This document shows positions 48,986-63,615 of a stretch of DNA of 64,000 nucleotides, in pieces. Position 1 is the first letter of the stretch, and each line of letters begins with the position of its first letter. Below the pieces are notes generated by a model. It ran no database searches. It was given only the letters and a program-made list of their open reading frames with translations, and had not been told where the DNA came from. The translations under genes were made by a program, and so were the position numbers. The stretch is from an uncultured Campylobacterales bacterium (lineage in GTDB: Bacteria; Campylobacterota; Campylobacteria; Campylobacterales; Arcobacteraceae). Where the stretch lies: contig CANLWY010000006.1 of NCBI GenBank assembly GCA_947494995.1, positions 62,001-126,000 on the forward strand, read 5' to 3'.

Positions 48986-49864
48986 TTACTCTTGATATAC
49001 TAAGGGTTGCTCATATGAAACTTTATATTTTGAGAAGATTTTTTCAATAGTTCCATCTCTAAAAAGTTCACTCATAAAACCATCTATTTCATATGATAAT
49101 GCTCTAAAGTCAGTTCTAACAGCAACACCTAAATCCCATTGGGTTTTAGCGTAGTCAATACCATTTGTCATGTAGTATTTATCTTTATTATTGTTAAAAT
49201 CTAAATAGAATTCAAGTTGAGTTTTAAGTCCTGCAACAGCATCGATTTTACCATCTTTTAAATCTTGAGCAGCGTCTTTTATATTTCTATAGTGTTTTAC
49301 ATTTTGACGTAAACTTCCTGCAAAAGAAGAGGTAAGATGTGCATCTGGAAGAGTGTCTATTTCAACTCCAACTGTATGAGCTTTTAGATTTGCTAAATTT
49401 CTGATTTCTGGAAGATACTCTTTATTTGTTGCTATAACCCATCTTTCAGCATGGTATGGAGACTTCATAACAACAAGTTCATTTGTAAGTTCTCCTGTTG
49501 ATACATCTCTTTCTCTAATGTATTCATAATCAAAAGGAACTCTAAACATAACATCTGCTTTTGTTTTATGAACTAAATTACCTTTCCAGATAATATTTCT
49601 TAAATCATCATCAAGATTCTCATCAGAGCCTGTCCAGTACCAAAGAGGTTTTACTCCCATTTTTTTTGCAATTTCTTTTGCAATATCAATATCAATACCT
49701 TTTTCTACACCATTTTCTATATATGAATAGGGAGGAAAATTTTCATAAATAGCAACAATGATATTCCCTTCATCTTTTATTTCTTCAAGTGACCTTGCAT
49801 TTAATGAAAGAAGAAGTAAGGAACATAAAAATGTTCCTTTTAATATATTGAATATAATCTTCAT
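48986..49864 (-). CDS. Quinoprotein-associated periplasmic protein (XoxJ/MoxJ-like binding protein)
   Basis: 292 residues with a signal peptide cleaved near residue 23 (LLLSLNARS). Fold of an amino-acid-type ABC binding protein: NIIVAIYENFPPYSYIENGV, EKGIDIDIAKEIAKKMGVKP, GLKTQLEFYLDF. Members of this group (MoxJ, XoxJ) do not work with ABC transporters; they assist PQQ dehydrogenases in the periplasm. The gene lies between the cytochrome c (four bases) and the NosR-like protein, which supports this reading over that of an amino acid transporter part. Confidence 0.78.
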   Translation of the reverse strand: MKIIFNILKGTFLCSLLLLSLNARSLEEIKDEGNIIVAIYENFPPYSYIENGVEKGIDIDIAKEIAKKMGVKPLWYWTGSDENLDDDLRNIIWKGNLVHKTKADVMFRVPFDYEYIRERDVSTGELTNELVVMKSPYHAERWVIATNKEYLPEIRNLANLKAHTVGVEIDTLPDAHLTSSFAGSLRQNVKHYRNIKDAAQDLKDGKIDAVAGLKTQLEFYLDFNNNKDKYYMTNGIDYAKTQWDLGVAVRTDFRALSYEIDGFMSELFRDGTIEKIFSKYKVSYEQPLVYQE

Positions 49865-49868
49865 AGTA

Positions 49869-50279
49869 TTAATCTGCTGGTATAGTCTCTATCCAAGTTC
49901 TAATAGCCCAAATTGCTTCAGGAGATAATACATCTTTAAAGGGAGGCATATAAACATTTCCATTTCTTACAACACCCTCTTGAACTTTTCCTAAGAAATA
50001 TTCATCAGTATCATCATCTCCAGCTTCTAAATATCTTAAATCTGGAGCAATTCCACCTGAAACTGCACCTAGTCCATGGCATCTTGCACAGTTAGAGTTA
50101 TATCCTGATTTTCCAATTTCAATTGCAGTTTTATTTCCTCTATATGGATTTACTAGTGCCTCTGGATCAACTTTTTCTAAACCTTTCGTATCCATAGCTT
50201 GTGGAGTTACATCACCATGAGCTAATCCTAATGTTGTACACGTAACTAATGCCAATGCAATAGAACTAAATTTTGTCAT
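49869..50279 (-). CDS. pedF: Cytochrome c-550, PedF-like
   Basis: 136 residues, signal peptide about 1-21, one haem c site C64-A-R-C67-H68 and probable axial methionine M111 (VYMPPF). The mature sequence NPYRGNKTAIEIGKSGYNSN and the RCHGLGAVSGGIAPDLRYLE block match PedF, the electron acceptor of PQQ alcohol dehydrogenases in Pseudomonas. First gene of the operon that continues with the XoxJ-like, NosR-like and ApbE genes. It has one of the seven island promoters. Confidence 0.88.
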   Translation of the reverse strand: MTKFSSIALALVTCTTLGLAHGDVTPQAMDTKGLEKVDPEALVNPYRGNKTAIEIGKSGYNSNCARCHGLGAVSGGIAPDLRYLEAGDDDTDEYFLGKVQEGVVRNGNVYMPPFKDVLSPEAIWAIRTWIETIPAD

Positions 50280-50310: not shown

Positions 50311-50342
50311 AGTATAATATTAGTTTATAGCGTGAATATAGC
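50311..50342 (-). promoter_or_regulatory. Island promoter 1 (pedF operon)
   Basis: Read on the minus strand: GCTATA-TTCAC-GCTATA (50342 to 50326), nine bases, then -10 TATACT (50316 to 50311). The second half-site ends 46 bases before the pedF start. It is the left arm of a perfect 19-bp inverted repeat whose right arm is promoter 2. Confidence 0.75.
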
Positions 50343-50364
50343 CCCATGAAATGGGAAGTTTACT

Positions 50365-50396
50365 GCTATATTCACGCTATAAAATATAAATATAAT
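50365..50396 (+). promoter_or_regulatory. Island promoter 2 (SsuABC-like operon)
   Basis: GCTATA-TTCAC-GCTATA (50365-50381), nine bases, then -10 TATAAT (50391-50396). The ATG of the binding protein is 45 bases after the half-site. Right arm of the perfect inverted repeat shared with promoter 1. Confidence 0.75.
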
Positions 50397-50426
50397 TGTT
50401 TTGATTTTTGACAAAAAGGATTTTAG

Positions 50427-51383
50427 ATGAGAGTTTTTCTATTAGTAATAATGGCTATTTTTATTGCAAATGCAAGTGGAAAACTACGAGTTGGAGTATT
50501 ATCTTTTGGAACAGTAAATTGGGAGCTTCAAACGATAAAAAACAATAAGCTTGATAGTAAAAATGGTTTTAATTTAGAAATAGTTAAACTAGCATCTAAA
50601 AACGCAGTTTCAACTGCACTGTTAGCAAAAAGCGTTGATGTAATTGTTACAGATTTTATATGGGTGAATAGACAAAGAAATAAGGGTTTTGATTTTGTTT
50701 ATTATCCTTATTCAAAAGTAGTTGGTTCAATGTACGCAAGACCAGAATTAAATATAAACTCTTTAGAAAAACTTGATGGTAAGAATCTTGGGGTTTCAGG
50801 TGGAAGTGTTGACAAAACTTGGCTTTTGATGAGAGCATATTCAAAATATAAATATAAAAAAGATTTAAAAGATATAGTAAATCCAACATATGCTGCTCCT
50901 CCTATTTTAAATAAAAAACTTTTAGATAAATCTTTGGATGCTACTATAAACTTTTGGCACTTTACTGCAAAACTTAATGCTAAAGGAATGAAAAAAGTTA
51001 TTGGGCTTGATGATATATTACCAAAATTGGGAATAAAAAATGATATATCTTTTATAGGATGGACTTTTAGTGAAAGTTTTGTATCTCAAGATAAGAAGAT
51101 AATAGATGGATTTTTAAAAGCTTCATCTGAGGCAAAACAGCTATTAAGTTCAAATGATAAAGAGTGGGATAAATTAAGAACTTTAATGAAAGCAAAAAAA
51201 GACTCTATTTTTGCTGTTTTGAAAGATGGTTATAAAAAAGGAATAGTACAAAAATTTGATGAAAACAATATAAAGGATACTAAAAAACTATATGAACTTT
51301 TAGTAAAAGAGGGTGGACAGAAGCTTGTTGGAGATGCAATTAAACTTGATGAAACAATTTTTTATGATTTTAACCCAAAATAA
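50427..51383 (+). CDS. ABC transporter periplasmic binding protein (NitT/TauT/SsuA class)
   Basis: 318 residues with a signal peptide (about 1-17). The mature part opens GKLRVGVLSFGTVNWELQTI and has the ligand-pocket strand SVDVIVTDFIWVNRQRNKG and the GKNLGVSGGSVDKTWLLM hinge of SsuA/TauA-like proteins. It is the first gene of a three-gene importer inside the PQQ island and driven by an island promoter, divergent to pedF. The cargo is unknown; candidates are a lanthanide chelate, an alcohol-derived acid or a cofactor precursor. Sulfonate uptake is the textbook role of the class but does not fit this setting well. Confidence 0.82.
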   Translation: MRVFLLVIMAIFIANASGKLRVGVLSFGTVNWELQTIKNNKLDSKNGFNLEIVKLASKNAVSTALLAKSVDVIVTDFIWVNRQRNKGFDFVYYPYSKVVGSMYARPELNINSLEKLDGKNLGVSGGSVDKTWLLMRAYSKYKYKKDLKDIVNPTYAAPPILNKKLLDKSLDATINFWHFTAKLNAKGMKKVIGLDDILPKLGIKNDISFIGWTFSESFVSQDKKIIDGFLKASSEAKQLLSSNDKEWDKLRTLMKAKKDSIFAVLKDGYKKGIVQKFDENNIKDTKKLYELLVKEGGQKLVGDAIKLDETIFYDFNPK

Positions 51384-51414
51384 AATAATCAAAGTAAAAG
51401 CTTAAGAAGAAAAA

Positions 51415-52158
51415 ATGGTAAGAAGTGAATATAGTTTTAGAATTTTATCAATAGCTACTTTTATAATAGTTTGGCAAGCTGCTTCAATAATGTTGAATTC
51501 TTCAGTTTTCCCAACGCCAGTAGATGTTATAAAGTCTTTATATATTCATAGTTCAAGTGGGGAGCTTTTTCATCACCTATTAATTACTTTACAAAGGGTT
51601 TTTATAGCGTTTATAATTGCTATGAGTATTGGAGTATTTTTTGGTATTTTAATGGGAAAATATAAAAAAGTTGACTCTTTTTTTGACCCTTTACTTGTGT
51701 TTGGGTTAAATCTACCTGCTTTAGTAACAATAATTCTTTGTTATATTTGGTTTGGACTTAGTGATATAGCTGCAATTTTAGCGGTAATAATAAATAAAGT
51801 ACCAAATGTTATAGTAGTTATAAGAGAAGGGGCTAGAGCAATAGACAAAAGTTTTATGCAAATAGCATGGGTTTATAAATTAAGTTTTAAAGATACTTTT
51901 TTTAAAGTGTATCTTCCTCAAATGTATCCATATATGTTAGCAAGTGCAAGAAATGGTTTAGCACTAATTTGGAAAATTGTGCTAGTAGTTGAACTTTTAG
52001 GAAGAAGTGATGGAATAGGATTTCAATTAGCAATGTTCTTTCAATTCTTTGATATTACTTCTATTCTAGCCTATGCAATTGCCTTTATGATAGTTGTACT
52101 TTTTATAGAAGGTTTTATTTTAAGGCCAATCGAACTAAAAACATCTTCATGGAGATAA
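51415..52158 (+). CDS. ABC transporter permease (SsuC class)
   Basis: 247 residues with six membrane helices. The ATPase-contact (EAA) loop is IDKSFMQIAWVYKLSFKD with the FKVYLPQMYPYMLASARNGL segment after it, the SsuC/TauC pattern. Forms the channel for the binding protein upstream; the ATPase gene starts one base after the stop codon. Confidence 0.88.
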   Translation: MVRSEYSFRILSIATFIIVWQAASIMLNSSVFPTPVDVIKSLYIHSSSGELFHHLLITLQRVFIAFIIAMSIGVFFGILMGKYKKVDSFFDPLLVFGLNLPALVTIILCYIWFGLSDIAAILAVIINKVPNVIVVIREGARAIDKSFMQIAWVYKLSFKDTFFKVYLPQMYPYMLASARNGLALIWKIVLVVELLGRSDGIGFQLAMFFQFFDITSILAYAIAFMIVVLFIEGFILRPIELKTSSWR

Positions 52159-52159
52159 A

Positions 52160-52870
52160 ATGTTAAATATTAATATTGAAGAAAAATCTTATTTAGATGA
52201 ATTAATTTTAAAAGATATAAATATAGAGTTTAAAAAGAATGAAATTATATCTATAATTGGTCCATCTGGATGTGGAAAAACTACTCTTTTAAATTTAATT
52301 TCTTCATTAGATAAATCATTTTATGGAAAAATAGAGTTTAATAAGAAAAAAGAGATAAATAATTTGGGGTTTATGTTTCAAGATTCAAGGCTACTTCCTT
52401 GGCTTAGTGTAAAAGAGAATATTTTACTAGTTCAAAAAAATAAGGATGAAGCAAAAATTGAACAGATGTTACATAAGGTTGGTTTGGATGGATATATGAA
52501 TTCAAGGATAAAAGAGCTTTCAGGTGGAATGAAAAGAAGGGTTTCCTTAATAAGAGCCTTTATAAATAATCCTGAGGTTCTGTTATTGGATGAACCCTTT
52601 ATTTCTTTAGATGCTCCAACAGCAAAAAATTTAAGACTTTTATTTATGGAGTTTTATAATCAAAATCCTACTAATACAGTTTTTATAACACATGATTTAC
52701 AAGAGGCTTTAGCTGTTTCTCATAGAATTATTTTCTTAAGTTTTAAGCCAACAAAAGTAGTTTATGAGTATGAGAATAAGAATAAGAGTTTTGATGAAGA
52801 TATTTTAAATGAAAAAAAAGAAGAGATATTAAGAAGATATCCAGATATTTTATCTGGATATCTTTCTTAA
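52160..52870 (+). CDS. ABC transporter ATP-binding protein (SsuB class)
   Basis: 236 residues. Walker A GPSGCGKTT, Q-loop GFMFQDSRLLPW, signature LSGGMKRRVSL, Walker [13 protein letters not shown], switch FITHDLQEA. Powers the importer of the two preceding genes. The last dozen codons form a strong stem-loop that may end the transcript inside the coding region. Confidence 0.92.
   Translation: MLNINIEEKSYLDELILKDINIEFKKNEIISIIGPSGCGKTTLLNLISSLDKSFYGKIEFNKKKEINNLGFMFQDSRLLPWLSVKENILLVQKNKDEAKIEQMLHKVGLDGYMNSRIKELSGGMKRRVSLIRAFINNPEVLLLDEPFISLDAPTAKNLRLLFMEFYNQNPTNTVFITHDLQEALAVSHRIIFLSFKPTKVVYEYENKNKSFDEDILNEKKEEILRRYPDILSGYLS
52834..52864. terminator. Stem-loop within the end of the ATPase gene
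   Basis: AAGATATCCAGATA and TATCTGGATATCTT pair perfectly over 14 bases with a three-base loop, inside the last codons of the SsuB-like gene. Eight bases separate this gene from the converging pedA1-like gene, so there is no other room for a terminator. Confidence 0.6.
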
Positions 52871-52878
52871 GTTATATC

Positions 52879-54024
52879 TTATTGACACTTCACTTCAAAA
52901 GAGGCAATTCCTAATGTATCTAAATCAGTTGTTTGATGTAAGAAACCTTCTTGTGGAGAGTTTGAAACTAAAGCTCTAGGGTGAACTAAAGATACAGGCA
53001 TTCTAAGTTGTCCATTAAAATCTCTAAATGTTAACTTTCTTCCTTTATATGCTGCTATATTAAAATCTTTTGAATAAATATTCTTTAGGTTTGTTTGGAA
53101 GTCTGTAGTATTTGTAGATTTAATACTAGTAACAATAGCTCTAACAGCAACCCAAGAAGCATAATCTTTTGAGTTCATCCATCTTTTTGCTTTCTTTTCA
53201 AATCTTTTTTGCATTTGTGCTGCACCCCAAGCTTCAATTACTTTATGCCAAGTAACAGGAGTAAGTCCAGACGTTCCAGCAACAGGTCTTGGTGTCCATG
53301 TATTAAAATATACATACTCTCCAAAATCATTAAAATAATCAGCAACTAAAACTACGTCATGATCTTTAGCTTGAGTAAAAGAAGGCATTTCACTTTGTGC
53401 TTTTCTTCTTATGTCTGTATCAAAATTCCATGTTTTTTCATCTACAATTTTACCACCAAATCTTTTTGCTGCTCTTTTTATGGCTTCTTCAATTTTTTTA
53501 TCTTCAGGTCTTTCTCCTTTTAATAAAAGCCACTCTTTCCAGTTTCTTTTTATTAAGAATTGAACTAGTCCATCATAAAGCATTGCATCACTTGAAATAG
53601 TATGTAAAAGATTTGGTTTACATAATGTTTGTCTAAATTTTGAACTTGTATTTGTGCTATTAATTAAAATTGCATCTTTTGCAAGAGGATTAGTTGAAAT
53701 TCTCTCTAAAAGTTCATCTCCTACATTTAAAATTATAAAAGTGCCACCACTTTTTATAAACTCTTCAAAACTATTTATGAGTTCTTCTTTATCTTTTGAT
53801 TTTTCTTTTTGTAAAATATATTTTTGATTTAAAAATCTTGCAGTTTTATTACTATCTTTTATAGCAATTTCTGCACCTTTTATTCCACTATCTTTAGGCT
53901 CTTCAATCACATTTGACAAAGCTGGCGGTTTTTTTATTTTTTCCTCTAAATACAAGATATTTATTTCTAAAGCATTGATATATCCATATGTAAAAAGTAG
54001 TATAAAAAGTATTCTTTTTGTCAT
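52879..54024 (-). CDS. pedA1: PQQ-associated ABC transporter binding protein (PedA1-like)
   Basis: 381 residues, signal peptide about 1-18. Resembles the branched-chain-amino-acid-type binding proteins that accompany PQQ-dependent catabolism (TIGR03863 as I recall it): LEINILYLEEKIKKPPAL near the start and DVVLVADYFNDFGEYVYFNT in the middle. In Pseudomonas putida the PedA1A2BC transporter helps lanthanide uptake. Here A1 is split from A2BC: it lies on the opposite strand, divergent from the small periplasmic protein gene, each with an island promoter. Confidence 0.78.
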   Translation of the reverse strand: MTKRILFILLFTYGYINALEINILYLEEKIKKPPALSNVIEEPKDSGIKGAEIAIKDSNKTARFLNQKYILQKEKSKDKEELINSFEEFIKSGGTFIILNVGDELLERISTNPLAKDAILINSTNTSSKFRQTLCKPNLLHTISSDAMLYDGLVQFLIKRNWKEWLLLKGERPEDKKIEEAIKRAAKRFGGKIVDEKTWNFDTDIRRKAQSEMPSFTQAKDHDVVLVADYFNDFGEYVYFNTWTPRPVAGTSGLTPVTWHKVIEAWGAAQMQKRFEKKAKRWMNSKDYASWVAVRAIVTSIKSTNTTDFQTNLKNIYSKDFNIAAYKGRKLTFRDFNGQLRMPVSLVHPRALVSNSPQEGFLHQTTDLDTLGIASFEVKCQ

Positions 54025-54046
54025 CTTTTCTCCTTTTGTTTTATCT

Positions 54047-54078
54047 ATTATAGAGAAGTTTTATAGCTTCAATTTAGC
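54047..54078 (-). promoter_or_regulatory. Island promoter 3 (pedA1-like gene)
   Basis: Read on the minus strand: GCTAAA-TTGAA-GCTATA (54078 to 54062), nine bases, then -10 TATAAT (54052 to 54047). The half-site ends 37 bases before the start codon. Confidence 0.75.
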
Positions 54079-54101
54079 AAAATGATTATAAATATCAATA
54101 T

Positions 54102-54133
54102 GCTAAACTCATGCTATAAAGCTTTATTAAAAT
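54102..54133 (+). promoter_or_regulatory. Island promoter 4 (small periplasmic protein gene)
   Basis: GCTAAA-CTCAT-GCTATA (54102-54118), nine bases, then -10 TAAAAT (54128-54133). The ATG follows 43 bases after the half-site. Back to back with promoter 3. Confidence 0.7.
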
Positions 54134-54161
54134 TTCAAAACATTTAAAAAAAGGAAACAAA

Positions 54162-54581
54162 ATGAAAAAAATTTTATTACTTGTAGTGGGGCTATTAATT
54201 GCTGGTGAATTTGCATTTGCAAAGAACATTAAAGGATTATTACATTCTAGAACAACATTAGCACCTATTACTATTGGTGCAGGAAAAGCTTTAGCTGATA
54301 AACCTTATAAGTTAGAAGCTGGTAAATACTACAAGTTAGTTTTAAAAAGTGATGGTTCAAGAGAGGTACCTATTGTTGGAGCATCTTTTTTTAGAAATAT
54401 CTGGGTAAATCAAGTATCAATTAATGATATTGAAGTAAGACCATTAGGAATTGATAGTTTTGAATTTGATGATGAAGGTGAAATTGAACTTACTTTTATT
54501 CCTATTAAACCTGGTACGTATACTTTAGGTCTTCCATCAGCAAAAACTGATAGAGAAAGAGCTATTTTTATTGTTGAATAA
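54162..54581 (+). CDS. Small periplasmic protein with cupredoxin-like fold pattern
   Basis: 139 residues, signal peptide cleaved near residue 20 (EFAFA). The mature protein of about 118 residues looks all-beta (YKLEAGKYYKLVLKSDGS, EIELTFIPIKPGTYTLGLPS), like a cupredoxin, but has no cysteine and only one histidine, so it cannot hold a normal copper site. It has its own island promoter and lies between the PedA1-like and PedA2-like genes, so I infer a periplasmic accessory of the transporter or dehydrogenase. Function unknown. Confidence 0.6.
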   Translation: MKKILLLVVGLLIAGEFAFAKNIKGLLHSRTTLAPITIGAGKALADKPYKLEAGKYYKLVLKSDGSREVPIVGASFFRNIWVNQVSINDIEVRPLGIDSFEFDDEGEIELTFIPIKPGTYTLGLPSAKTDRERAIFIVE

Positions 54582-54588
54582 ATATTAT

Positions 54589-54615
54589 GGTATAAAGCAA
54601 TCTTTGCTTTATACC
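54589..54615 (+). terminator. Stem-loop after the small periplasmic protein gene
   Basis: GGTATAAAGCAA and TTGCTTTATACC form a perfect 12-bp stem with a three-base loop, seven bases after the stop codon and just before island promoter 5. No T-run follows; it may protect the 3' end of the mRNA and not terminate fully. Confidence 0.6.
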
Positions 54616-54621
54616 TAATTT

Positions 54622-54653
54622 GCTAAATTCACGCTATAAAGTTTATTTACAAT
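54622..54653 (+). promoter_or_regulatory. Island promoter 5 (pedA2BC-like operon)
   Basis: GCTAAA-TTCAC-GCTATA (54622-54638), nine bases, then -10 TACAAT (54648-54653). The ATG follows 47 bases after the half-site. Confidence 0.72.
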
Positions 54654-54685
54654 TTCATAAATCGAATTTATAAAGGGCATGAGCG

Positions 54686-55645
54686 ATGAAAAAATTAATA
54701 TTAACATCTATGTTAGCAGCAAGTATTTTAAGTGCAGATACGATATTTGTATCAAATGAAAAAGATGACACTATTACTGTAATTGATTCAAATACTAATA
54801 AAGTTATAAAAACTTACGAAGTAGGTCAAAGACCTAGAGGAATTACTCTTACTAATGATAATTCAAAACTATATATTTGCGCAAGTGATGATGATACTGT
54901 TCAGGCAATGGATGTAAAAACTGGAAAAATTTTATATAACCTTCCTTCTGGTGAAGATCCAGAGCAATTTGCCTTACATCCAAATGGAAAAGAGCTTTAC
55001 ATATCAAATGAGGATGATGGAATTGTAACAGTAGTTGATACTGAAAATAAATCAGTTATATCGCAAATTGAGGTTGGTATTGAGCCTGAAGGGATGGCTG
55101 TAAGTCCAGATGGTAAATATGCTATTAACTCTTCTGAAACATCAAACTTTTTGCACTGGATTGATACAAAAACTAAAGAGATTGTTCATAATACATTAGT
55201 TGATCAAAGACCAAGACATATTGAGTTTACAAAAAGTGGAGATAAAGTATGGGCAAGTTCTGAAATTGGTGGAACGGTTGTTGTTTTAGATGTTAAAACA
55301 AAAGAGAAGTTAAAAACTATTGGATTTAAAATTCCTGGTATATTTAAAGATAATATTCAGCCAGTAGGAATTAAATTAACATCTGATGGAAAATATGCCT
55401 TTGTTGCTTTAGGTCCTGCTAATCATGTAGCTGTAATTGATGCAAAGAGTTATGAGGTTATTAAATATCTATTAGTAGGAAAAAGAGTTTGGCAATTAGA
55501 TTTTGCAAATAATGAGAAAAAACTATACACTACAAATGGTGTAAGTTCAGATGTTTCTGTTATTAATGTTGAAAAATTAAAAGTTGAAAAAACTATTAAA
55601 GTAGGAAGATACCCTTGGGGATTAGCAGTAATTCCTTCAAAATAG
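54686..55645 (+). CDS. pedA2: PQQ-associated YVTN beta-propeller protein (PedA2-like)
   Basis: 319 residues, signal peptide cleaved after LSA (about residue 17). Seven YVTN-type repeats of about 42 residues, for example DTITVIDSNTNKVIKTYEVG and DGIVTVVDTENKSVISQIEV, forming a periplasmic beta-propeller. It matches the beta-propeller protein of PQQ-dependent catabolism clusters (TIGR03866). The ABC ATPase and permease genes follow 15 bases later. Many acidic loops could hold metal, but I see no defined lanthanide site. Confidence 0.85.
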   Translation: MKKLILTSMLAASILSADTIFVSNEKDDTITVIDSNTNKVIKTYEVGQRPRGITLTNDNSKLYICASDDDTVQAMDVKTGKILYNLPSGEDPEQFALHPNGKELYISNEDDGIVTVVDTENKSVISQIEVGIEPEGMAVSPDGKYAINSSETSNFLHWIDTKTKEIVHNTLVDQRPRHIEFTKSGDKVWASSEIGGTVVVLDVKTKEKLKTIGFKIPGIFKDNIQPVGIKLTSDGKYAFVALGPANHVAVIDAKSYEVIKYLLVGKRVWQLDFANNEKKLYTTNGVSSDVSVINVEKLKVEKTIKVGRYPWGLAVIPSK

Positions 55646-55660
55646 GAGTTAATAAATAAT

Positions 55661-56386
55661 ATGAGTGCTCTTAAAGTAGAGAAACTTTCATTTAAGTATG
55701 AAAAAAAACTAGTTTTAAAAGATGTCTCTTTTGAGATAAAACACAACTCTTTTTTTGTACTTTTAGGCTTAAATGGGGCAGGTAAATCAACAATATTTGC
55801 CCTTCTTACAAGACTATTGGATCTTCAAGAAGGTTCAATAGTAATAAATGGACATGACATTAAAAATTATCAAAAAGCTTTAAATTATATTGGAATTGTG
55901 TTTCAAGAACCAACTTTAGATTTAGACCTTACAGTAAAACAAAACTTAAATTATTACGGTTCTTTAAAGGGGCTTTCTTTTAAACAAACTCTTGACTCAA
56001 TTAAAGATGAGATTGTAAAAATTGGACTGGAAGATAAACTAAATACAGTTACAAGAGAGCTAAATGGTGGACATAGAAGAAGAGTAGAAATACTAAGATC
56101 TCTTATTGGTAGTCCAAAACTGTTATTATTAGATGAAGCTACTGTTGGATTGGATGTTGAAAGTAGATTTGACATTTTAGAATATATCAGAAATCTTGTT
56201 AAAGAGAAGGGTATTTCTGTACTTTGGATTACACATTTATTTGATGAGGTTGAAAGTGATGATGAAATTGCAATTATTAAAAAAGGCCAAATCACTGATA
56301 CTTCAACAGTAAAAGAGATTATTAAAAAGTATGAACAAGAAAATTTAAATGATACTTTTAAATATATAAATAAAGAGCAAATATGA
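55661..56386 (+). CDS. pedB: PQQ-associated ABC transporter ATP-binding protein (PedB-like)
   Basis: 241 residues. Walker A GLNGAGKST, Q-loop IGIVFQEPTLDLDLT, variant signature LNGGHRRRVEI, Walker B LLLLDEATVGLD, switch WITHLFDEVE. The ABC-2 type ATPase of the PQQ-linked transporter (TIGR03864). It overlaps the permease gene by four bases. Confidence 0.88.
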   Translation: MSALKVEKLSFKYEKKLVLKDVSFEIKHNSFFVLLGLNGAGKSTIFALLTRLLDLQEGSIVINGHDIKNYQKALNYIGIVFQEPTLDLDLTVKQNLNYYGSLKGLSFKQTLDSIKDEIVKIGLEDKLNTVTRELNGGHRRRVEILRSLIGSPKLLLLDEATVGLDVESRFDILEYIRNLVKEKGISVLWITHLFDEVESDDEIAIIKKGQITDTSTVKEIIKKYEQENLNDTFKYINKEQI

Positions 56387-57174
56387 GAGAGCATTTAAAT
56401 TGTGCAAAAGGAATTATTTATAAAGAGCTTTTGCGATTTATAAAACAGAAAAGTAGATTTTTTTCTGCTTTAGTAAGGCCTCTTTTATGGCTTTTGATTT
56501 TTTCAGTTGGATTTAAAACCGCTCTTGGACTTGCTATTATTCCTCCATATGAAACATATATAACTTATGAGACCTATATTGTTCCAGGACTTATTGGAAT
56601 GATAATGCTTTTTAATGGAATGCAAAGTTCTCTTACAATGATATTTGATAGGGAAATGGGAAGTATGAAAATCCTTCTTAGTTCTTCTTTTAATAGAAGT
56701 TTTTTACTTTTTTGTAAAATGTTTGCAACAGCCATTGTTTCTACAATTCAGAGTATTACATTTTTAATAATTGCTTATTTTTATGGAGTTGAAATGACTC
56801 CTTTAGGATATATTTTAGCAGTACCTGCAATACTATTTTGTTCAATTATATTAAATGCTATTGCACTGTTTATATCATCAGTTATTAAACAGCTTGAAAA
56901 TTTTGCTACAGTTATGAATTTTGTAATATTTCCTATGTTTTTTCTATCATCTGCTCTTTATCCACTTTGGAAAATAAAAGATTCGTCTATTTTCCTTTTT
57001 ACAGTATCTTCTTATAACCCTTTTACTTTCATTGTAGAGTTTATTAGATTTACTTTATATATTAAATTTGATGTTCAAAATTTTTATCTATTGATTTCTT
57101 GTTTTGTAATTGCACTTCTTCTAGCTTTTATAGGCTATAGTTCTAAAAATATTTTCAAAAAAAAGTCTAGATAG
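56383..57174 (+). CDS. pedC: PQQ-associated ABC-2 type permease (PedC-like)
   Basis: 263 residues with about six membrane helices. ABC-2 family features: PLLWLLIFSVGFKTALG, the TYIVPGLIGMIMLFNGMQSS segment and SALYPLWKIKDSS. Matches the alcohol-cluster permease PedC (TIGR03861). ABC-2 permeases usually export, so its part in lanthanide uptake, reported for Pseudomonas putida, is mechanistically puzzling. Confidence 0.85.
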   Translation: MREHLNCAKGIIYKELLRFIKQKSRFFSALVRPLLWLLIFSVGFKTALGLAIIPPYETYITYETYIVPGLIGMIMLFNGMQSSLTMIFDREMGSMKILLSSSFNRSFLLFCKMFATAIVSTIQSITFLIIAYFYGVEMTPLGYILAVPAILFCSIILNAIALFISSVIKQLENFATVMNFVIFPMFFLSSALYPLWKIKDSSIFLFTVSSYNPFTFIVEFIRFTLYIKFDVQNFYLLISCFVIALLLAFIGYSSKNIFKKKSR

Positions 57175-57183
57175 CCCCTAAAA

Positions 57184-57206
57184 TAGGTATTTTTATAATG
57201 CCTATA
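57184..57206 (+). terminator. Weak stem-loop between pedC and the dehydrogenase gene
   Basis: ATAGGTATT and AATGCCTAT pair over nine bases with one wobble and a TTTAT loop. It overlaps the first half-site of island promoter 6, so folding and regulation may be connected; read-through from pedC is likely partial. Confidence 0.35.
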
Positions 57207-57232
57207 TTCAGGCTATAATCATCATGTATACT
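57201..57232 (+). promoter_or_regulatory. Island promoter 6 (alcohol dehydrogenase-pqq operon)
   Basis: CCTATA-TTCAG-GCTATA (57201-57217; first half has one mismatch), nine bases, then -10 TATACT (57227-57232). The leader to the ATG is longer than at the other six sites (82 bases after the half-site), leaving room for RNA-level control. Confidence 0.7.
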
Positions 57233-57299
57233 TCGCATCAAGCAAACGCTTCAATGAGAGTAAGAGGTGATTGTAGCAAAATTAAAAAGGGGATAGACA

Positions 57300-59039
57300 A
57301 TGTTAAAAAAACATTTACTAACTGGTTTTCTAGCTTTATGTTTTACAGCTGTAACAAGTTCTGCAGTTGGATTTGAACCTGTAAAGTATAAAGATATTGT
57401 AGATGATGCAAAAACTGTTGATGATGTTGTTTCTTATGGATTAGGTCAAAAGGGTCAGAGATATTCTCCACTTGATCAAATTAATAAGAAAACAATTAAA
57501 GATTTAGTTCCTGTTTGGAATTTTTCTTTTGGTGGAGAAAAACAAAGAGGACAAGAAGCACAACCTTTAGTTAAAGATGGAGTAATGTATGTAACAGCAT
57601 CTTATTCTAGAATCTATGCTATTGATACAAAGACAGGTGATGAGTTATGGCAGTATGAAGCAAGGCTTCCTAGTGCTATCTTACCTTGTTGTGATGTTAT
57701 TAACAGAGGAGCAGCATTATATGATGATTTAGTTTTCTTTGGAACACTAGATGCAAAAATCGTTGCACTTGACAGAAAAACTGGTAAAGTTAGATGGAAA
57801 AAGAAAATTGCAAACTATAAAGATGGGTACTCATATACAGCTGCTCCGCTTATAGTAAATGATTTACTTATTACTGGAAATTCTGGTGGTGAGTTTGGTA
57901 TTGTTGGACGTATTGATGCAAGAAACCCAAAAACTGGTGAGTTAGTATGGACTAGACCAATGGTTGAAGGACATATGGGTTACTTAAATGGTAAAGAGAA
58001 TGGTATTACTGGAAAAACTAATGCTACTTGGCCAGGTGATTTATGGAAACAAGGTGGAGCTGCTCCATGGAATGGTGTTACATATGATCCTGATACAAAC
58101 TTAATTTTTGTTCCAACAGGAAACCCTGCACCATGGAATTCACATGAAAGACCAGGAGATAACTTATATTCTGCATCTAGAGTAGCTTTAGACCCTGATA
58201 CTGGAAAAATTGTTTGGCATTTCCAAACAACTCCAAATGACGGTTGGGATTATGATGGTATGGCAGAGTTTGTACTATTTGAATATAATGAAAATGGTAA
58301 GACTGTAAAAGCAGGAGCGACTGCTGATAAAAATGGTTTCTTCTATGTATTAAATAGAGAAAATGGTAAATATATTAGATCTACTCCTTTTGTTGATAAA
58401 ATTACATGGGCTAAGGGAATGGATAAAAATGGTAGACCAATTGTAAACGAAGAGAATAGACCAGGAAATCCAAAGGGTGCTAAACAAGGTACTACTGTAT
58501 TCTCTGTACCTTCATTCTTAGGTGGTAAAAACTGGAATCCAATGGCATTCTCTCAAAAAACAGGATTATTTTATGTTCCTGCAAATGAATGGGGAATGGA
58601 TATTTGGAATAAACCTGTTTCTTATAAAAAAGGTGCTGCATATTTAGGTGCTGGATTTACTATTAAACCAGTATATGAAGATCACATTGGTGCATTAAAA
58701 GCTATTGATCCTGTAACTGGTAAAATCAAATGGATTTATAAGAACAAAGCTCCTTTATGGGGAGGTGTTTTAACAACTGCTGGTGGTTTAGTAATTACAG
58801 GAAATCCTGAAGGTAAATTAATGGCACTTGATGATGAAACTGGTGAAGTTCTATGGAGCTTCCAAACAGGAACTGGAATTGTTGGGTCTCCAATTACATG
58901 GGAAGAAGATGGTGACCAATATATTGCTGTAGTATCTGGTTGGGGTGGAGCTGTTCCTTTATGGGGTGGTGAAGTAGCAAAAACTGTTAAGTACCTAAAC
59001 CAAGGTGGTTCAGTACACGTATTTAAGCTACATAAATAG
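57300..59039 (+). CDS. PQQ-dependent alcohol dehydrogenase, lanthanide type (PedH/ExaF-like)
   Basis: Periplasmic quinoprotein that oxidises alcohols and passes electrons to cytochrome c. 579 residues, signal peptide cleaved near residue 23. Eight-bladed propeller with W-motifs (for example [18 protein letters not shown]). Vicinal disulfide C130-C131, metal ligands E198 (GGEFG) and N275 (TGNPAPWN), catalytic base D317. The decisive part is W316-D317-Y318-D319: enzymes that use lanthanides carry an extra Asp two residues after the catalytic Asp, where calcium enzymes have Ala, Ser or Thr. So I predict lanthanide dependence. Substrate range (ethanol, longer or aromatic alcohols, methanol) is not certain. 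pqqA starts 31 bases later. Confidence 0.93.
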
Positions 59040-59070
59040 TATTATAAAATCTAAGAAAGGAGGCAAAACT

Positions 59071-59145
59071 ATGGAATGGAGTAAACCAACATTTGTTGAT
59101 AACAGATTCGGATTTGAAGTTACAATGTATATTTGTCACGTTTAG
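59071..59145 (+). CDS. pqqA: PQQ precursor peptide PqqA (24 residues)
   Basis: MEWSKPTFVDNRFGFEVTMY followed by ICHV. Precursor of the cofactor: Glu16 and Tyr20 in E-V-T-M-Y are joined by PqqE and become PQQ. Very strong ribosome site AAAGGAGG (59056-59063). Too short for default gene callers. It lies between the dehydrogenase and pqqB, the usual place at the head of the pqq genes. Confidence 0.97.
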   Translation: MEWSKPTFVDNRFGFEVTMYICHV

Positions 59146-59154
59146 GTTTTAGTT

Positions 59155-59186
59155 CAAAAGTGGGGACTCTCTCATCCTCACTTTTG
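59155..59186 (+). promoter_or_regulatory. Stem-loop between pqqA and pqqB
   Basis: CAAAAGTGGGGA and TCCTCACTTTTG pair over 12 bases with one G-T wobble and an eight-base loop, nine bases after pqqA, with no T-run after it. Such hairpins after pqqA lower expression of pqqB-E relative to pqqA or stabilise the pqqA message; known in methylotrophs. Confidence 0.7.
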
Positions 59187-59249
59187 CAACTTTGGTTTTG
59201 TTAGTGACAAGAATTAAACAAAATCAAAATTATAAAAAAAGGGAGAATT

Positions 59250-60167
59250 ATGAAGATAGAAGTTTTAGGATCAGCTGCTGGAGGAGGACTACCTCAGTTT
59301 AATTGTAATTGTGACAATTGTAGAGGTTACAGAGAAGGTAAAAAGACTATAAAAAGAAGGACACAATCTTCAATTACAGTTAGTGAAGATGGTGAAAATT
59401 GGGTATTATTTAATACCTCTCCTGATATTTTAGAGCAGATTCATAATTCTCCTTTTTTACATCCTACTAAAAAAAGAGAGACAAAAATAAAAGCAATTAT
59501 TTTCAATGATGCTCAAATTGACCATACTACAGGTCTTTTGATGTTAAGAGAAGGTTGCCCTCATGAAGTTTATTGTACAAAAGAAGTAAATGAAGAGTTA
59601 AATACGTCTTTCCCCTTATTTAAAATGCTACAACATTGGGATGGAGGAGGAACTAATTGGCACGAGATAGTTCCAAATAGTACTACAAAATTTGAAATAC
59701 CAGTTATGCCATCATATGAGTTTTATGCACACGCCTTAATATCTAATGCACCACCTTATTCAGCTTATAGAGATATGCCTCGAAGTGGAGATAATATTGG
59801 AGTTACGGTGGTGAATAAAAATACAGGTAAGAGACTTTTTTATCTTCCAGGCCTTGGAGTCTTGGAAGATCATATTTTAGAAGAGATGAAAAAAGCAGAT
59901 GTTCTTTTATTAGAAGGAACATTATGGACGGACGATGAGATGATAAAAGGAAACTTTTCTAAAAAGTTAGGAACGGAAATGGGACATCTTCCTTTAAATG
60001 GTGAAGATGGACTTATCAAAGTTCTAGATGGTTTAGAAAAACCACGAAAAATATTGATTCATATAAATAATACAAATCCTATTTTAGATGAAAGTAGTGA
60101 TGAGTATAAGGAGCTTATTTCACATGGAATAGAAGTTTCTTACGATGGTATGAGCATTGAAATTTAG
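59250..60167 (+). CDS. pqqB: PQQ biosynthesis protein PqqB
   Basis: 305 residues, metallo-beta-lactamase fold hydroxylase that oxidises the tyrosine moiety of the cross-linked precursor. Starts [20 protein letters not shown] with the zinc-binding C-N-C-x2-C motif of Pqq[12 protein letters not shown] (metal site) and [14 protein letters not shown] near the end. Ribosome site AAGGGAG. Complete; pqqC follows within 25 bases. Confidence 0.96.
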
Positions 60168-60190
60168 TATTGGAATATAGGAGAATAGAT

Positions 60191-60949
60191 ATGACAAAAA
60201 AAATGGATAGTTTATTAAGTAAAGAAGAGTTTGAAAATAAGCTTAGAAGTATGGGAGAAATGTATCATATTCATCACCCTTTTCATGTAAGAATGTACCA
60301 AGGAGATTGTACAAAAGAGGAGATTCAAGGTTGGGTTGCAAATAGGTTTTATTATCAAACTGCAATTCCAATTAAAGATGCTGCAATTATGTCAAATAAT
60401 CCTCCTTTAGAAGATAGAAGAAAGTGGATTGATAGAATTATTGACCATGACAGTGTTGGTGGAGGAATTGAAGCTTGGTTAGAACTTGGTGAGGCAGTTG
60501 GTTTAAATAAAGAAGACTTAATCTCTCATAAATATGTTTTACCATCAGTTAAGTTTGCAGTTGATGCTTATGTAAATTTTGCAAGACGAGCTCCTTGGAA
60601 AGAAGCAGCAATGTCATCTTTAACAGAGATGTTTGCACCACAAATTCATCAGCAAAGACTTGATACTTGGCCAAAAAATTATCCTTGGATAGAACAAAAT
60701 GGTTTAAGGTATTTTCAAAAAAGATTAAGTGAAGCAAGACGTGATGTACAACATGGTTTAGCAGTAACACTTGAAGAGTTTAATACCATAGAGCTTCAAA
60801 ATAGAGCTTGTGAAATTTTACAATTTAAACTAGATATTTTATGGACAATTTGTGATGCTTTGTATTTAGCATACGAATTAAAAAGACCACCATATTTTAA
60901 TATAGAAGGATATGAAGATGCACAAAGAAAAATTACTTGTAATAAATAA
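60191..60949 (+). CDS. pqqC: Pyrroloquinoline-quinone synthase PqqC
   Basis: Cofactor-free oxidase for the last step of PQQ synthesis. 252 residues, all-helical. I start at the ATG at 60191, since AGGAG lies seven bases before it; the frame also has a TTG at 60170. PqqC residues: [62 protein letters not shown] and the RDVQHGL segment. Complete. Confidence 0.96.
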
Positions 60950-61187
60950 TCATTTTCAACTTCAATGGGAAGAGAAACAAAACTCTTTTGTTCTTCTTTA
61001 TCCTGAGGGAATGGTTCAATTAAATCAAAGTGCAGGAGAGATATTAAATCTTTGTGATGGCACAAAGAAATTTGATGAGATTGTAAAAATACTTGAAGAG
61101 AAGTTCAATATGGATGATTTATCTAATGATATTGAAGAGTTTTTAGTAGATGCAATGAATAGAGAATGGGTAAAATATTATGAGTAA
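60918..61187 (+). CDS. pqqD: PqqA-binding chaperone PqqD
   Basis: 89 residues. Presents PqqA to PqqE. Family segments: [20 protein letters not shown] and a C-terminal helical part [10 protein letters not shown]. It overlaps pqqC by 32 bases; I choose the ATG at 60918 because AAGG is then eight bases away, whereas the ATG at 60912 has only two bases of spacing. Confidence 0.93.
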
Positions 61188-62286
61188 AAATGATATAAAA
61201 CCACCTTTATGGCTACTTTTAGAGCTTACACATAAGTGTCCTTTAGAGTGTGCATATTGTTATAACCAGCTTGATTTTGCAAATACAAAAGATGCTATGA
61301 GTAAAGAGGATTGGTTTAGAGTTTTAGAAGAGTCCAGAGAAATGGGTGCAGTTCAATTAGGAATTTCTGGAGGAGAGCCACTACTTAATAAAGATATTGT
61401 TGAAATTGTACAAAAAGCTAGTGATTTAAAGTTTTATACAAACTTGATTACTTCTGGAGTAGGTGGAACACCTGGAGTATTAAAGAAGTTAAAAGAAGCA
61501 GGTCTTAAGACAGTTCAATTAGGTATTCAATCTCATGATGAAAACACTATGACGCTGATTACAAATAATAGAACAGCTTTTAAAGATAAAATAGCATTTG
61601 CGAAAGAGGTAAAAGAGTTAGGAATGCAGCTTATTGTAAATACCTGTATAACAAGGCAGAATATTCATCAAATAGCTGAGATAATTGAGTTTTGTGATAG
61701 CATAGGTGCAAACTATTTAGAAATAGCAAATATTCAATATTATGGTTGGGCTTTAGAGAATGTAAATGCACTTCTTCCTACCGAAGAGCAGTTAGATGAG
61801 GCGATGGAAGTTACAAATCATTATAGAGAAAAAAGAAAAGATATGAAGGTGTTTTTTGTAGTGCCTGATTATTATGCAACAAGACCAAAGGCTTGTATGA
61901 ATGGTTGGGGAAGTACTTTTCTAACAATAAATCCTGATGGTGTAGCACTTCCATGTAATACTGCAAATACTTTGCCACTAGAGTTCCCAAATGTAAAAGA
62001 ATACTCTATTGAGTATATTTGGGAAGAGTCAGAATCTTTTAACTATTTTAGAGGTGATAAATGGATGAATCCTACTTGTAGGTCATGTCCTGAAAAAGAG
62101 AAAGATTTTGGTGGATGTAGATGTCAAGCTTTTGCTTTAACTAATGATATGCATGAAGCAGATCCTGTTTGTGATAAATCTTCTTATCATGGAGTAGTTA
62201 AAAAAATAATTGAAAATGCAGTACAAAGTGATTGCACACCTATTTATAGAAATAAACAAAACTCATTAGCTTTTATAAATGCTTAA
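61180..62286 (+). CDS. pqqE: PqqA peptide cyclase PqqE (radical SAM)
   Basis: Forms the Glu-Tyr carbon-carbon bond in PqqA. 368 residues. Radical SAM motif C20-x3-C24-x2-C27 (HKCPLECAYCYNQ), GISGGEPLL, and a SPASM domain with auxiliary cluster cysteines (KACMNGWGSTFLTINPDG, ALPCNTA, and CRSCPEKEKDFGGCRCQAF). Overlaps pqqD by eight bases. Last gene of the pqq operon; a strong palindrome follows. Confidence 0.97.
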   Translation: MSKNDIKPPLWLLLELTHKCPLECAYCYNQLDFANTKDAMSKEDWFRVLEESREMGAVQLGISGGEPLLNKDIVEIVQKASDLKFYTNLITSGVGGTPGVLKKLKEAGLKTVQLGIQSHDENTMTLITNNRTAFKDKIAFAKEVKELGMQLIVNTCITRQNIHQIAEIIEFCDSIGANYLEIANIQYYGWALENVNALLPTEEQLDEAMEVTNHYREKRKDMKVFFVVPDYYATRPKACMNGWGSTFLTINPDGVALPCNTANTLPLEFPNVKEYSIEYIWEESESFNYFRGDKWMNPTCRSCPEKEKDFGGCRCQAFALTNDMHEADPVCDKSSYHGVVKKIIENAVQSDCTPIYRNKQNSLAFINA

Positions 62287-62290
62287 TATT

Positions 62291-62325
62291 TTTGTTTGCT
62301 ATAAATCAAGTTTATAGCAAACAAA
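62291..62325 (+). terminator. Palindrome after pqqE
   Basis: TTTGTTTGCTATAAA and TTTATAGCAAACAAA pair perfectly over 15 bases with a five-base loop. Probably ends or protects the pqq transcript. Each arm contains a GCTATA half-site of the island activator, so it might also bind that protein upstream of promoter 7. Confidence 0.65.
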
Positions 62326-62349
62326 TCCCTTAAAATCGAATATCTCAAG

Positions 62350-62381
62350 GCTATAGCAAGGCTATAAAACTTCTATATAAT
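62350..62381 (+). promoter_or_regulatory. Island promoter 7 (NADH dehydrogenase-like gene)
   Basis: GCTATA-GCAAG-GCTATA (62350-62366), nine bases, then -10 TATAAT (62376-62381). The ATG follows 49 bases after the half-site. Extends the regulon to the flavoprotein and VOC genes. Confidence 0.73.
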
Positions 62382-62415: not shown

Positions 62416-63615
62416 ATGGATAAAGTAGTAATTATTGGTGGTGGATATGCAGGAATCTATGCTTTAAGAGAACTTGTAAAAAATAAAAATATAAAAATCA
62501 CCTTGATTGATCAAAATACCTTTCATAATTTACAGCCTGAAGTTTATGATTTAATAGCAAACAAATCAAATATAGCAGATGTAACTATTGATTTAACAAC
62601 TCTTTGCATGGGATTTAATCATAGCTATTTAGAGTATAAAAATCTTAAGGTTAGAAAAATTGACCAAAAATCAAAGAGAATTTATACTGATGAACAAGAG
62701 ATTGTAGAATTTGATTATTTGATACTTGCAGCAGGAACTAGAACCTTTTTCCCACCGATAATTCCTGGACTTAATAATGCCCATGATATAAAGAAACTTC
62801 CTTGGGCAATGTATTTTAAACAGAGTTTTGAAAATCAACTCTTTAAAAAAATACAACTTGAAGTAAAACAGTGTGATGATACTCATATTGTAGTTGTAGG
62901 AGCAGGACTTTCAGGTGTTGAAATAGCTGCTGAAATGGCATATAATTCTAAAATGTTTTTCAAAAGAGGAAATTTTTCTTGTGATAATTTAAAAATATCT
63001 CTTATTAGTAGTTCTGATACTATTCTTCCAGGACTTCCATCTGAACTGATTAGAATTTCTCATAATAGATTAAAATCATTAGGAATCAATGTAATTACAA
63101 ATACAAAGCTTCAAAAATGTGAAGATGGTTTTGCTTATCTTTCAAATGGAACAAAAATAAATCATTCTTTTTTAATTTTTACAGGTGGAGTTGAAGCTTC
63201 AAAAATTACTCAAGAGCTTGATATAGAAAAAACGTCACGTGGTCAAATTGTAGTAAATGAGTTTATGCAAACAGACAAGTATCCAAATATATTTGCAGTT
63301 GGAGATGTTTCAGAGATAAAAAATAGTAAAGGTGAAATAATGCCTCCTAATGTAACAATGGCAAGACTAAGTGGAGCGAATGCAGGGAAAAATATTTTGA
63401 ATATTATAAAAAAAAGAAAGCTAGAAAAATGTACTCCAAAACTTGATGGAATCTTGATAGCACTTGGAGGGAAATATGCTGCAGGAAGTATTTATAATCT
63501 CTTTTTTGTCAAAGGAAGGTTAGCTTATGAAATTAAAAAATATGTTTTTGATTCTTATAGAAAACCTTTATTAAAATTAATTAAACAAGGTTATAAAAGA
63601 TTAAAAAAAGGATAA
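62416..63615 (+). CDS. Type-2 NADH dehydrogenase-like FAD oxidoreductase
   Basis: 399 residues. FAD-binding start VVIIGGGYAGIYALREL, second nucleotide site VVVGAGLSGVEIAAEMA and the FAD motif NIFAVGDVSE place it in the NDH-2/sulfide:quinone reductase group; no redox cysteine pair of sulfide:quinone reductases is evident. A basic, amphipathic C-terminus (YRKPLLKLIKQGYKRLKKG) may hold it on the membrane. It could reoxidise NADH made from the aldehyde and acid products of alcohol oxidation; that link is inferred from the shared promoter type. Confidence 0.82.
   Translation: MDKVVIIGGGYAGIYALRELVKNKNIKITLIDQNTFHNLQPEVYDLIANKSNIADVTIDLTTLCMGFNHSYLEYKNLKVRKIDQKSKRIYTDEQEIVEFDYLILAAGTRTFFPPIIPGLNNAHDIKKLPWAMYFKQSFENQLFKKIQLEVKQCDDTHIVVVGAGLSGVEIAAEMAYNSKMFFKRGNFSCDNLKISLISSSDTILPGLPSELIRISHNRLKSLGINVITNTKLQKCEDGFAYLSNGTKINHSFLIFTGGVEASKITQELDIEKTSRGQIVVNEFMQTDKYPNIFAVGDVSEIKNSKGEIMPPNVTMARLSGANAGKNILNIIKKRKLEKCTPKLDGILIALGGKYAAGSIYNLFFVKGRLAYEIKKYVFDSYRKPLLKLIKQGYKRLKKG

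Follow-up and report, generated by a model that had tools for sequence, protein, structure and literature searches.

Which regulator acts through a promoter element that recurs seven times in one short island, and to which signal does it answer? The window analysed here is a 64,000-nucleotide stretch of DNA from an uncultured Campylobacterales bacterium of the Arcobacteraceae (assembly GCA_947494995.1, here G000; contig CANLWY010000006.1, here C6, positions 62,001–126,000). It carries an island of genes for alcohol oxidation dependent on pyrroloquinoline quinone (PQQ). A first-pass annotation of the window described, in front of seven transcription units between positions 50311 and 62381, a direct repeat GCTAWA-N5-GCTATA (the box) followed after nine bases by a −10 hexamer, and predicted an activator of the OmpR/PhoB type. 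Judging from comparisons of sequence, the DNA switch of these seven promoters most likely belongs to a sensor–regulator pair, encoded just past the window, which would activate genes for aldehyde oxidation across many relatives.

The coordinates and strands of the seven sites were all correct (Table 1). Six were exact for the strict pattern GCTAWA-N5-GCTATA-N9-TAnnnT, and the site at 57201 differed by one mismatch, with CCTATA as its first half. The −10 hexamers were also as annotated, each lying exactly 9 nt past the second half-site. TAnnnT was present at distance 9 in 7/7 sites, and every other spacing between 0 and 19 gave it in one of the seven at most (the background being 0.033 per position); none of 100 dinucleotide-shuffled sequences contained a match to the strict pattern. 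A decayed copy at 57201 was ruled out: the CCTATA form, with the same spacing, recurred in 11 of 30 PQQ-dehydrogenase loci belonging to four genera.

Over the 3,167,823 bases of the genome, the strict pattern had seven matches, six in the window and one at C6:128826, 2.8 kb beyond the window end (none in the backward control). They spanned C6:112311–128857 on a single contig. Without the −10, the box had eight exact matches, all of them at C6:112326–128842. The genome-wide search had been set as a check on the annotation, and it gave no sign of a motif spread over unrelated promoters; with all eight exact boxes inside one 17-kb stretch, a common promoter element was ruled out. When one mismatch was allowed, 41 matches were obtained against 14 in the backward control. 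Twenty-two of the 33 one-mismatch boxes were inspected with their loci, and the N9-TAnnnT arrangement was seen at 57201 alone. Two further ones were inspected, C9:22016 with the N9 hexamer TACTAT and C6:219796 without a hexamer; of the remaining nine, two overlapped island sites (C6:124361 and C6:128815) and seven lay outside the inspected set. The one-mismatch copies in the genome look like background. The copy at C9:22016 (L272:2017), which reads CCTATATTCTTGCTATA-N9-TACTAT in front of an FeS_assembly_P (PF01883) gene, may be real and is a possible additional target.

A regulator of the predicted type was found encoded directly after the window. The gene for an OmpR-type regulator of 220 amino acids occupies C6:126148–126810 on the minus strand, 148 bp past the window end at C6:126000. 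Its receiver domain (PF00072, 86.9 bits) and its DNA-binding domain (PF00486, 37.3 bits) were both over cut-off, and Asp51 stood at the receiver site. A histidine kinase gene (630 amino acids, C6:126807–128699) overlaps it by 4 nt and combines FIST N, FIST C, HisKA and HATPase domains in one protein. The expected phospho-acceptor, His429, was invariant in 23 aligned kinase sequences. The kinase is probably cytoplasmic (soluble), since its highest 19-residue Kyte–Doolittle mean was 1.07 and no stretch typical of a membrane helix was present. NosP is itself a FIST protein, which fits the weak match of kinase residues 24–355 to the NosP equivalog model NF041558 (44.4 bits, cut-off 450). A sequence search of the FIST part against solved structures gave a best match at E = 0.22, and the best 50 of 940 structural matches to the predicted kinase structure (mean predicted local distance difference test score of 75) were led by histidine-kinase cores, none being informative on the FIST part. 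A TACAAT hexamer lies 6 nt before the kinase ATG (L008:6699–6730), with a similar element in many orthologs among the matches listed, and the kinase mRNA may be leaderless.

Divergent from the pair are genes for an aldehyde dehydrogenase (ALDH) and a DUF779 protein. The best model for the ALDH was the ExaC acetaldehyde dehydrogenase (NF050026, 841.4 bits, cut-off 900). Its promoter, outside the window, was the largest site of all, with four tandem 11-bp repeats reading GCTATATTCAC GCTATATTCTT GCTAAATTCAG GCTATATTCTT and TAAGAT nine bases past the last GCTATA.

The family was represented by 104 genomes, which were scanned for the strict motif and for the kinase (ortholog called at E below 1e-140). 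The kinase ortholog was present in 62, and the two features occurred together: 55 genomes had both, 7 the kinase only, 1 the motif only and 41 neither (Fisher p 1.8e-20, phylogeny ignored). Within the most variable genus the corresponding counts were 13, 1, 0 and 17 (p 6.8e-8). The 42 kinase-less genomes, about 84.5 Mb, contained a single strict match, at one site in G102, which is probably due to chance. Six of the seven motif-negative, kinase-bearing genomes had a degenerate array with the N9 spacing at the ALDH, and the seventh, G076, was represented by a contig fragment. DUF779 was found in 63 genomes, namely 61 of the 62 with the kinase plus G003 and G013. In these last two the ALDH was present (85% identical) and both the kinase pair and the box were absent. 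In G041 and G042 the pair and the ALDH were on different contigs and an exact box still preceded the ALDH, which rules out the box as a mere part of the kinase–ALDH intergenic region. The PQQ alcohol dehydrogenase was detected in 31 of the 104 genomes (30 over cut-off), every one kinase-bearing; the other 31 of the 62 kinase-bearing genomes had no match to it, and a regulon for lanthanides or PQQ only was rejected on this count. The box pattern is real, specific and conserved. Some genomes possess second kinase/regulator copies (L160–L165; kinase about 50–53% identical) without ALDH or array. The second copy in G066 adjoins an indolepyruvate/phenylpyruvate decarboxylase, an aldehyde-producing enzyme.

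A sample of the order comprised 298 genomes, 268 of them outside the family. The strict pattern was matched in 15 of the 268, eleven of them in a second family (f20) and one each in f2, f6, f10 and f16, with 2 in the backward control. We infer that f20 is Sulfurospirillum-like, because 5 of 20 genomes had dehalogenase matches. The kinase ortholog pair was present in 20 of 28 f20 genomes, and in 16 of these 20 (one locus per genome) the divergent gene encoded a molybdopterin-dependent aldehyde oxidoreductase, unrelated to the ALDH family. The model was run on L347 (NF045668, 1593.9 bits, cut-off 1100) and the remaining 15 were assigned through tblastn matches to L347 of at least 83% identity. 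Fifteen of the 16 loci matched the loosened pattern GCTANA-N5-GCTANA-N9-TAnnnT, and the sixteenth had GCTATG as its second half. The box was found at none of the four kinase loci without the oxidoreductase, and in G290 the 4.9 kb upstream of the kinase contained neither that gene nor a box. Second kinase copies in G188 and G331 fell outside the survey, the G188 locus (L359) having 386 nt upstream of the kinase. In three f20 genomes (L344–L346) an exact box precedes a hydrogenase-4-like operon, downstream of a CO-dehydrogenase-like gene (both named by eye); the first gene of the operon is HydN/AegA-like, below cut-off. G104, from another family, has an exact box before an acetate–CoA ligase gene (L357:4120) that adjoins an ActP-like symporter gene (by eye).

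The sites followed a common grammar. The consensus of 196 non-redundant strict sites was GCTAWA-YTNAN-GCTATA-AA, the spacer having T at its second position in 86% and A at its fourth in 81%. Direct repeats kept the 11-bp period, in tandem arrays of up to 4–5 copies. When kinase-anchored ALDH promoters were collected without requiring a −10, TAnnnT stood at distance 9 in 39 of 49, against 7 promoters for the next best distance. Four half-sites were present in 51 of 63 N9 promoters of kinase-anchored loci, under a loose half-site rule that allowed steps of 10–12 bp. The comparison of upstream regions in relatives, proposed with the first-pass annotation, bore it out, as boxes recurred before the corresponding island genes. 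The survey of PQQ alcohol dehydrogenase loci took a single locus from each genome and so covered 30 of 34 matches, the others being a fragment in G022 and the additional copies in G083, G090 and G092. In 29 of the 30 a box with N9 was found, 16 exact, 11 with one mismatch (all CCTATA) and 2 with two mismatches, and the last locus was cut by a contig end.

Boxes were also located far from the pair. Unlinked NDH-2-like, NosR-like and eutB genes carried one in several genomes, and in single-contig genomes such targets lay hundreds of kilobases from the pair (NDH-2-like in G010 and G011, NosR-like in G091, eutB in G001 and G030). EutB was encoded in 15 of the 104 family genomes, all kinase-bearing; the box was exact in 4, degenerate in 2 and not found in 9. 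The eutB start was unlocated in 2 of these 15 loci, of which G090 proved to have a box and G060 gave no exact box. G092 has an exact box at a gene for a FIST-domain chemoreceptor (a methyl-accepting chemotaxis protein, L269:2325), which hints at chemotaxis tied to the same signal. A small CXXCH gene of G090 (cytochrome-c-like, by eye; L261:3290–3360) has several GCTATA repeats in a row, 11 bp apart, but no TAnnnT at N9.

Table 1. Promoter boxes and genes of the alcohol-oxidation island (window positions).
Feature	Position	Strand	Promoter of	Remark
Box GCTATATTCACGCTATA + N9 + TATACT	50311..50342	-	pedF operon	Exact match; relatives also have a box before pedF
Box GCTATATTCACGCTATA + N9 + TATAAT	50365..50396	+	SsuA-like ABC operon	Exact match; box kept in relatives
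Box GCTAAATTGAAGCTATA + N9 + TATAAT	54047..54078	-	pedA1 (PQQ_ABC_bind)	Exact match; box kept in relatives
Box GCTAAACTCATGCTATA + N9 + TAAAAT	54102..54133	+	Small periplasmic protein gene	Exact match; box kept in relatives
Box GCTAAATTCACGCTATA + N9 + TACAAT	54622..54653	+	pedA2BC-type operon	Exact match; box kept in relatives
Box CCTATATTCAGGCTATA + N9 + TATACT	57201..57232	+	PQQ alcohol dehydrogenase + pqq	One mismatch, recurring CCTATA variant
Box GCTATAGCAAGGCTATA + N9 + TATAAT	62350..62381	+	NDH-2-like / VOC unit	Exact match; unlinked NDH-2-like genes of relatives also have a box
NosR-like membrane Fe-S protein, downstream in pedF operon	46899..48956	-		NF046105 509 bits, under the cut-off of 1000; unlinked NosR-like genes of relatives also have a box
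Periplasmic solute-binding protein, pedF operon	48986..49864	-		PF00497
Cytochrome c-550 PedF	49869..50279	-		TIGR04494 182.3 bits, cut-off 122
SsuA-like (NMT1) solute-binding protein	50427..51383	+		PF09084
PedA1, PQQ alcohol dehydrogenase-system ABC binding protein	52879..54024	-		TIGR03863 441.9 bits, over cut-off
Small periplasmic protein	54162..54581	+		No family match in profile searches
PQQ-catabolism-associated beta-propeller protein	54686..55645	+		TIGR03866 502.6 bits, over cut-off
PQQ alcohol dehydrogenase-system ABC ATPase	55661..56386	+		TIGR03864 289.5 bits, slightly below cut-off 302
PedC-type ABC permease	56383..57174	+		TIGR03861 343.9 bits, over cut-off
PQQ-dependent methanol/ethanol-family dehydrogenase	57300..59039	+		TIGR03075 787.2 bits, over cut-off
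pqqA-like 24-amino-acid peptide gene, between PQQ dehydrogenase and pqqB	59071..59145	+		Translation MEWSKPTFVDNRFGFEVTMYICHV; pqqA identity by eye
PqqB	59250..60167	+		TIGR02108 over cut-off
PqqC	60170..60949	+		TIGR02111 over cut-off
PqqE	61180..62286	+		TIGR02109 over cut-off
NDH-2-like pyridine-nucleotide-disulphide oxidoreductase	62416..63615	+		PF07992 150 bits; no NCBIfam cut-off reached

Because tandem boxes at an aldehyde-oxidising gene are conservedly paired with the FIST kinase and its OmpR regulator, and because kinase and box co-occur, the boxes are very probably the binding sites of this adjoining two-component system. The first-pass annotation had also claimed a regulon made of the island units. 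The claim stood in that the boxes were confined to the island and a few related genes, and gave way as to the centre, which would be aldehyde oxidation rather than PQQ or lanthanides, given the half of the kinase-bearing genomes without a PQQ alcohol dehydrogenase match. The regulon core would thus be aldehyde oxidation, to which PQQ alcohol oxidation, the NDH-2-like enzyme and sometimes ethanolamine lyase would be added. An aldehyde is proposed as the signal chiefly because the constant set of sensor, regulator and box is in most cases joined by an enzyme that oxidises aldehydes, belonging to one or the other of two unrelated kinds.

We propose the following sequence of events. The kinase would sense a cytoplasmic aldehyde, or a product made from it, the aldehyde arising from alcohols (through the PQQ alcohol dehydrogenase), from ethanolamine (through EutB) or from other sources. 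It would then phosphorylate the regulator, whose dimers would bind two GCTAWA half-sites spaced by 11 bp in the place of the −35 and recruit RNA polymerase to the −10 nine bases downstream. The four half-sites at the ALDH may give the strongest or the earliest response, and two half-sites would serve the island units. The output would be an electron chain from alcohol to acid, with the PQQ alcohol dehydrogenase, PedF, PQQ synthesis, the ALDH and the NADH-oxidising NDH-2-like enzyme. A wider proposal is offered tentatively, with chances that we place a little short of even: the FIST domain of this kinase family might sense aldehydes inside the cell, and acetaldehyde in particular, and the pair might have become attached to two unrelated aldehyde-oxidising enzymes (the ExaC-like NAD-dependent ALDH and the molybdenum aldehyde oxidoreductase), then recruited routes that yield aldehydes (PQQ alcohol dehydrogenase and ethanolamine lyase) through the spread of one 11-bp repeat.

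Several points weigh against activation by the FIST-linked pair around aldehyde oxidation. Since promoters without a −35 are common in Campylobacterota, the place of the box is a weaker argument for activation. The strict f20 matches were located at the aldehyde oxidoreductase in only 5 of 11 genomes, with 3 on the hydrogenase-4-like operon and 3 elsewhere (one in a kinase-less genome), so the f20 count rests on the loosened pattern. An exact box was missing at eutB in 11 of 15 genomes (2 of the 11 degenerate). Ten of 208 tallied boxes had no assigned gene (34 matched no window gene, and 24 of those were later assigned using added reference genes); this tally was drawn from loci chosen for kinase or motif and should not be read as an unbiased count. 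The FIST-linked regulator is not identified by the half-site alone, as CTATA repeats with this period are also bound by the distant PceP (PMC7755780). The same genome also encodes a closer relative of the regulator, 52% identical, which could bind similar sites.

This relative is the source of the main rival explanation, in which the boxes belong to a Cache-domain kinase/OmpR pair situated beside SSS and ActP-like symporter genes (L389:7683–9909, G000:C1), the FIST pair being a mere neighbour or otherwise employed. The recognition helix of the FIST-linked regulator, TIRAEVNRVKK, was conserved over 63 ortholog rows (some genomes represented twice), and its Glu192 was present in every one of them and in 0 of 30 paralog rows (L016 among these being a wrongly picked open reading frame). 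The Cache-pair regulator, the closest paralog and outside those 30 rows, shares Glu192 in a similar helix, TIRAEISRLKK. Moreover, the kinase-less G013 has GCTATT-N5-GCTATT-N9-TATAAT before the symporter, and in two other families related regulators (58% and 51% identical) adjoin porin genes that have an exact box; Pfam identifies one of these porins as OprD. On these grounds the repeat would belong to a small group of regulators, aldehyde oxidation being associated with its FIST-linked member. The paralog, however, is present in G003 and G013, where the ALDH has no box, and the ALDH box is kept with the FIST pair even on different contigs, so that we consider this explanation quite improbable. 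That another unlinked regulator, either a further Trans_reg_C protein or one of a different family, binds the box seems hardly probable at all: the genome has 49 PF00486 matches and the helix comparison was confined to the 30 rows and the Cache paralog, but kinase and box co-occurred within the genus in 13 of 14 genomes against 0 of 17, and the adjacency of array and pair was conserved across genera and in the second family.

Granting the FIST-linked regulator its sites, it could act as a repressor released by the signal, with the box overlapping the −35 region. The box does sit where a −35 would be, and BumR of Campylobacter acts both ways (PMC11796366). Yet no TTGACA-like element underlies the box consensus, the four half-sites of most kinase-anchored N9 promoters form a layout more like activation, and activation has been argued for PceP, whose sites have this position too (PMC7755780); repression is therefore unlikely. 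The signal could also be lanthanides/PQQ or nitric oxide in place of an aldehyde. In Pseudomonas, PedS2–PedR2 answers rare earths and the ped cluster includes a gene for the nitric oxide sensor NosP (PMC12997753). Against this stand the 31 kinase-bearing genomes without the PQQ enzyme, the two unrelated kinds of aldehyde-oxidising enzyme as the most constant partner, and the low score of the FIST part with the NosP model. We regard such a signal as rather doubtful, while giving it appreciable weight.

The pair, its box and the −10 spacing provide a candidate regulator, binding site and promoter grammar for alcohol/aldehyde oxidation in bacteria for which literature searches found none. No report linking FIST to an aldehyde or alcohol dehydrogenase was found, and in the searches for Arcobacter with PQQ or acetaldehyde nothing on this system was apparent, judged from the listings. 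Apart from nitric oxide/heme in NosP, FIST ligands are, to our knowledge, mostly unknown. The recurrent association of a soluble FIST kinase with enzymes that oxidise aldehydes makes an aldehyde ligand directly testable.

The layout can be compared with several known systems. The pho box of Enterobacteria is likewise an 11-bp direct repeat replacing the −35, bound by a winged helix of the PhoB type. The likeness drawn in the first-pass annotation held for the period and the position and failed for the half-site, CTGTCAT there and GCTAWA here, and for the protein, which scored 82.3 bits with the PhoB model TIGR02154 (cut-off 296.2). The Pseudomonas ped/exa regulators govern PQQ alcohol-oxidation genes of the kind found in the island. 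AgmR, PedS2–PedR2 and others control the ped cluster, and the gene for the kinase PedS1 has one for a NosP-type protein next to it (PMC12997753). AgmR is of the LuxR type, whereas the regulator described here is of the OmpR type, its profile scan giving Response_reg and Trans_reg_C only and no GerE/LuxR-type DNA-binding domain. NosP is a separate protein (PMC12997753), whereas FIST is here fused to the kinase. EmaSR of Acinetobacter exerts two-component control of ethanol and acetate metabolism (PMC9603970) and is set beside the present pair by this description, not by sequence. For BumSR of Campylobacter, the part of PMC11796366 that was available gives no binding consensus.

The closest precedent, and an experimental one for this layout in the phylum, is PceP of Sulfurospirillum. 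Electrophoretic mobility shift assays showed this regulator of the OmpR family to bind at several promoters of one island, its CTATA repeats lying over the −35 with six bases between them (PMC7755780). The boxes described here share the CTATW half-sites and the 11-bp period over the −35. The PceP system differs in its membrane-bound sensor and its signal, tetrachloroethene (PMC7755780). Three f20 genomes had an element of three CTATW repeats in their dehalogenase regions, and the OmpR-type regulators there were 24–27% identical to the FIST-linked one. The regulator beside this element in G261 and G281, taken as PceP, shared about 25% identity and differed in its recognition helix; none was found beside it in G231. 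At about 25% identity, the FIST-linked regulator was rejected as a PceP ortholog. The PceP site was read by its authors as CTATW-N17-CTATW (PMC7755780), whereas most sites here consist of two adjacent half-sites 11 bp apart; the comparison suggests that the PceP site may be re-read as tandem 11-bp repeats.

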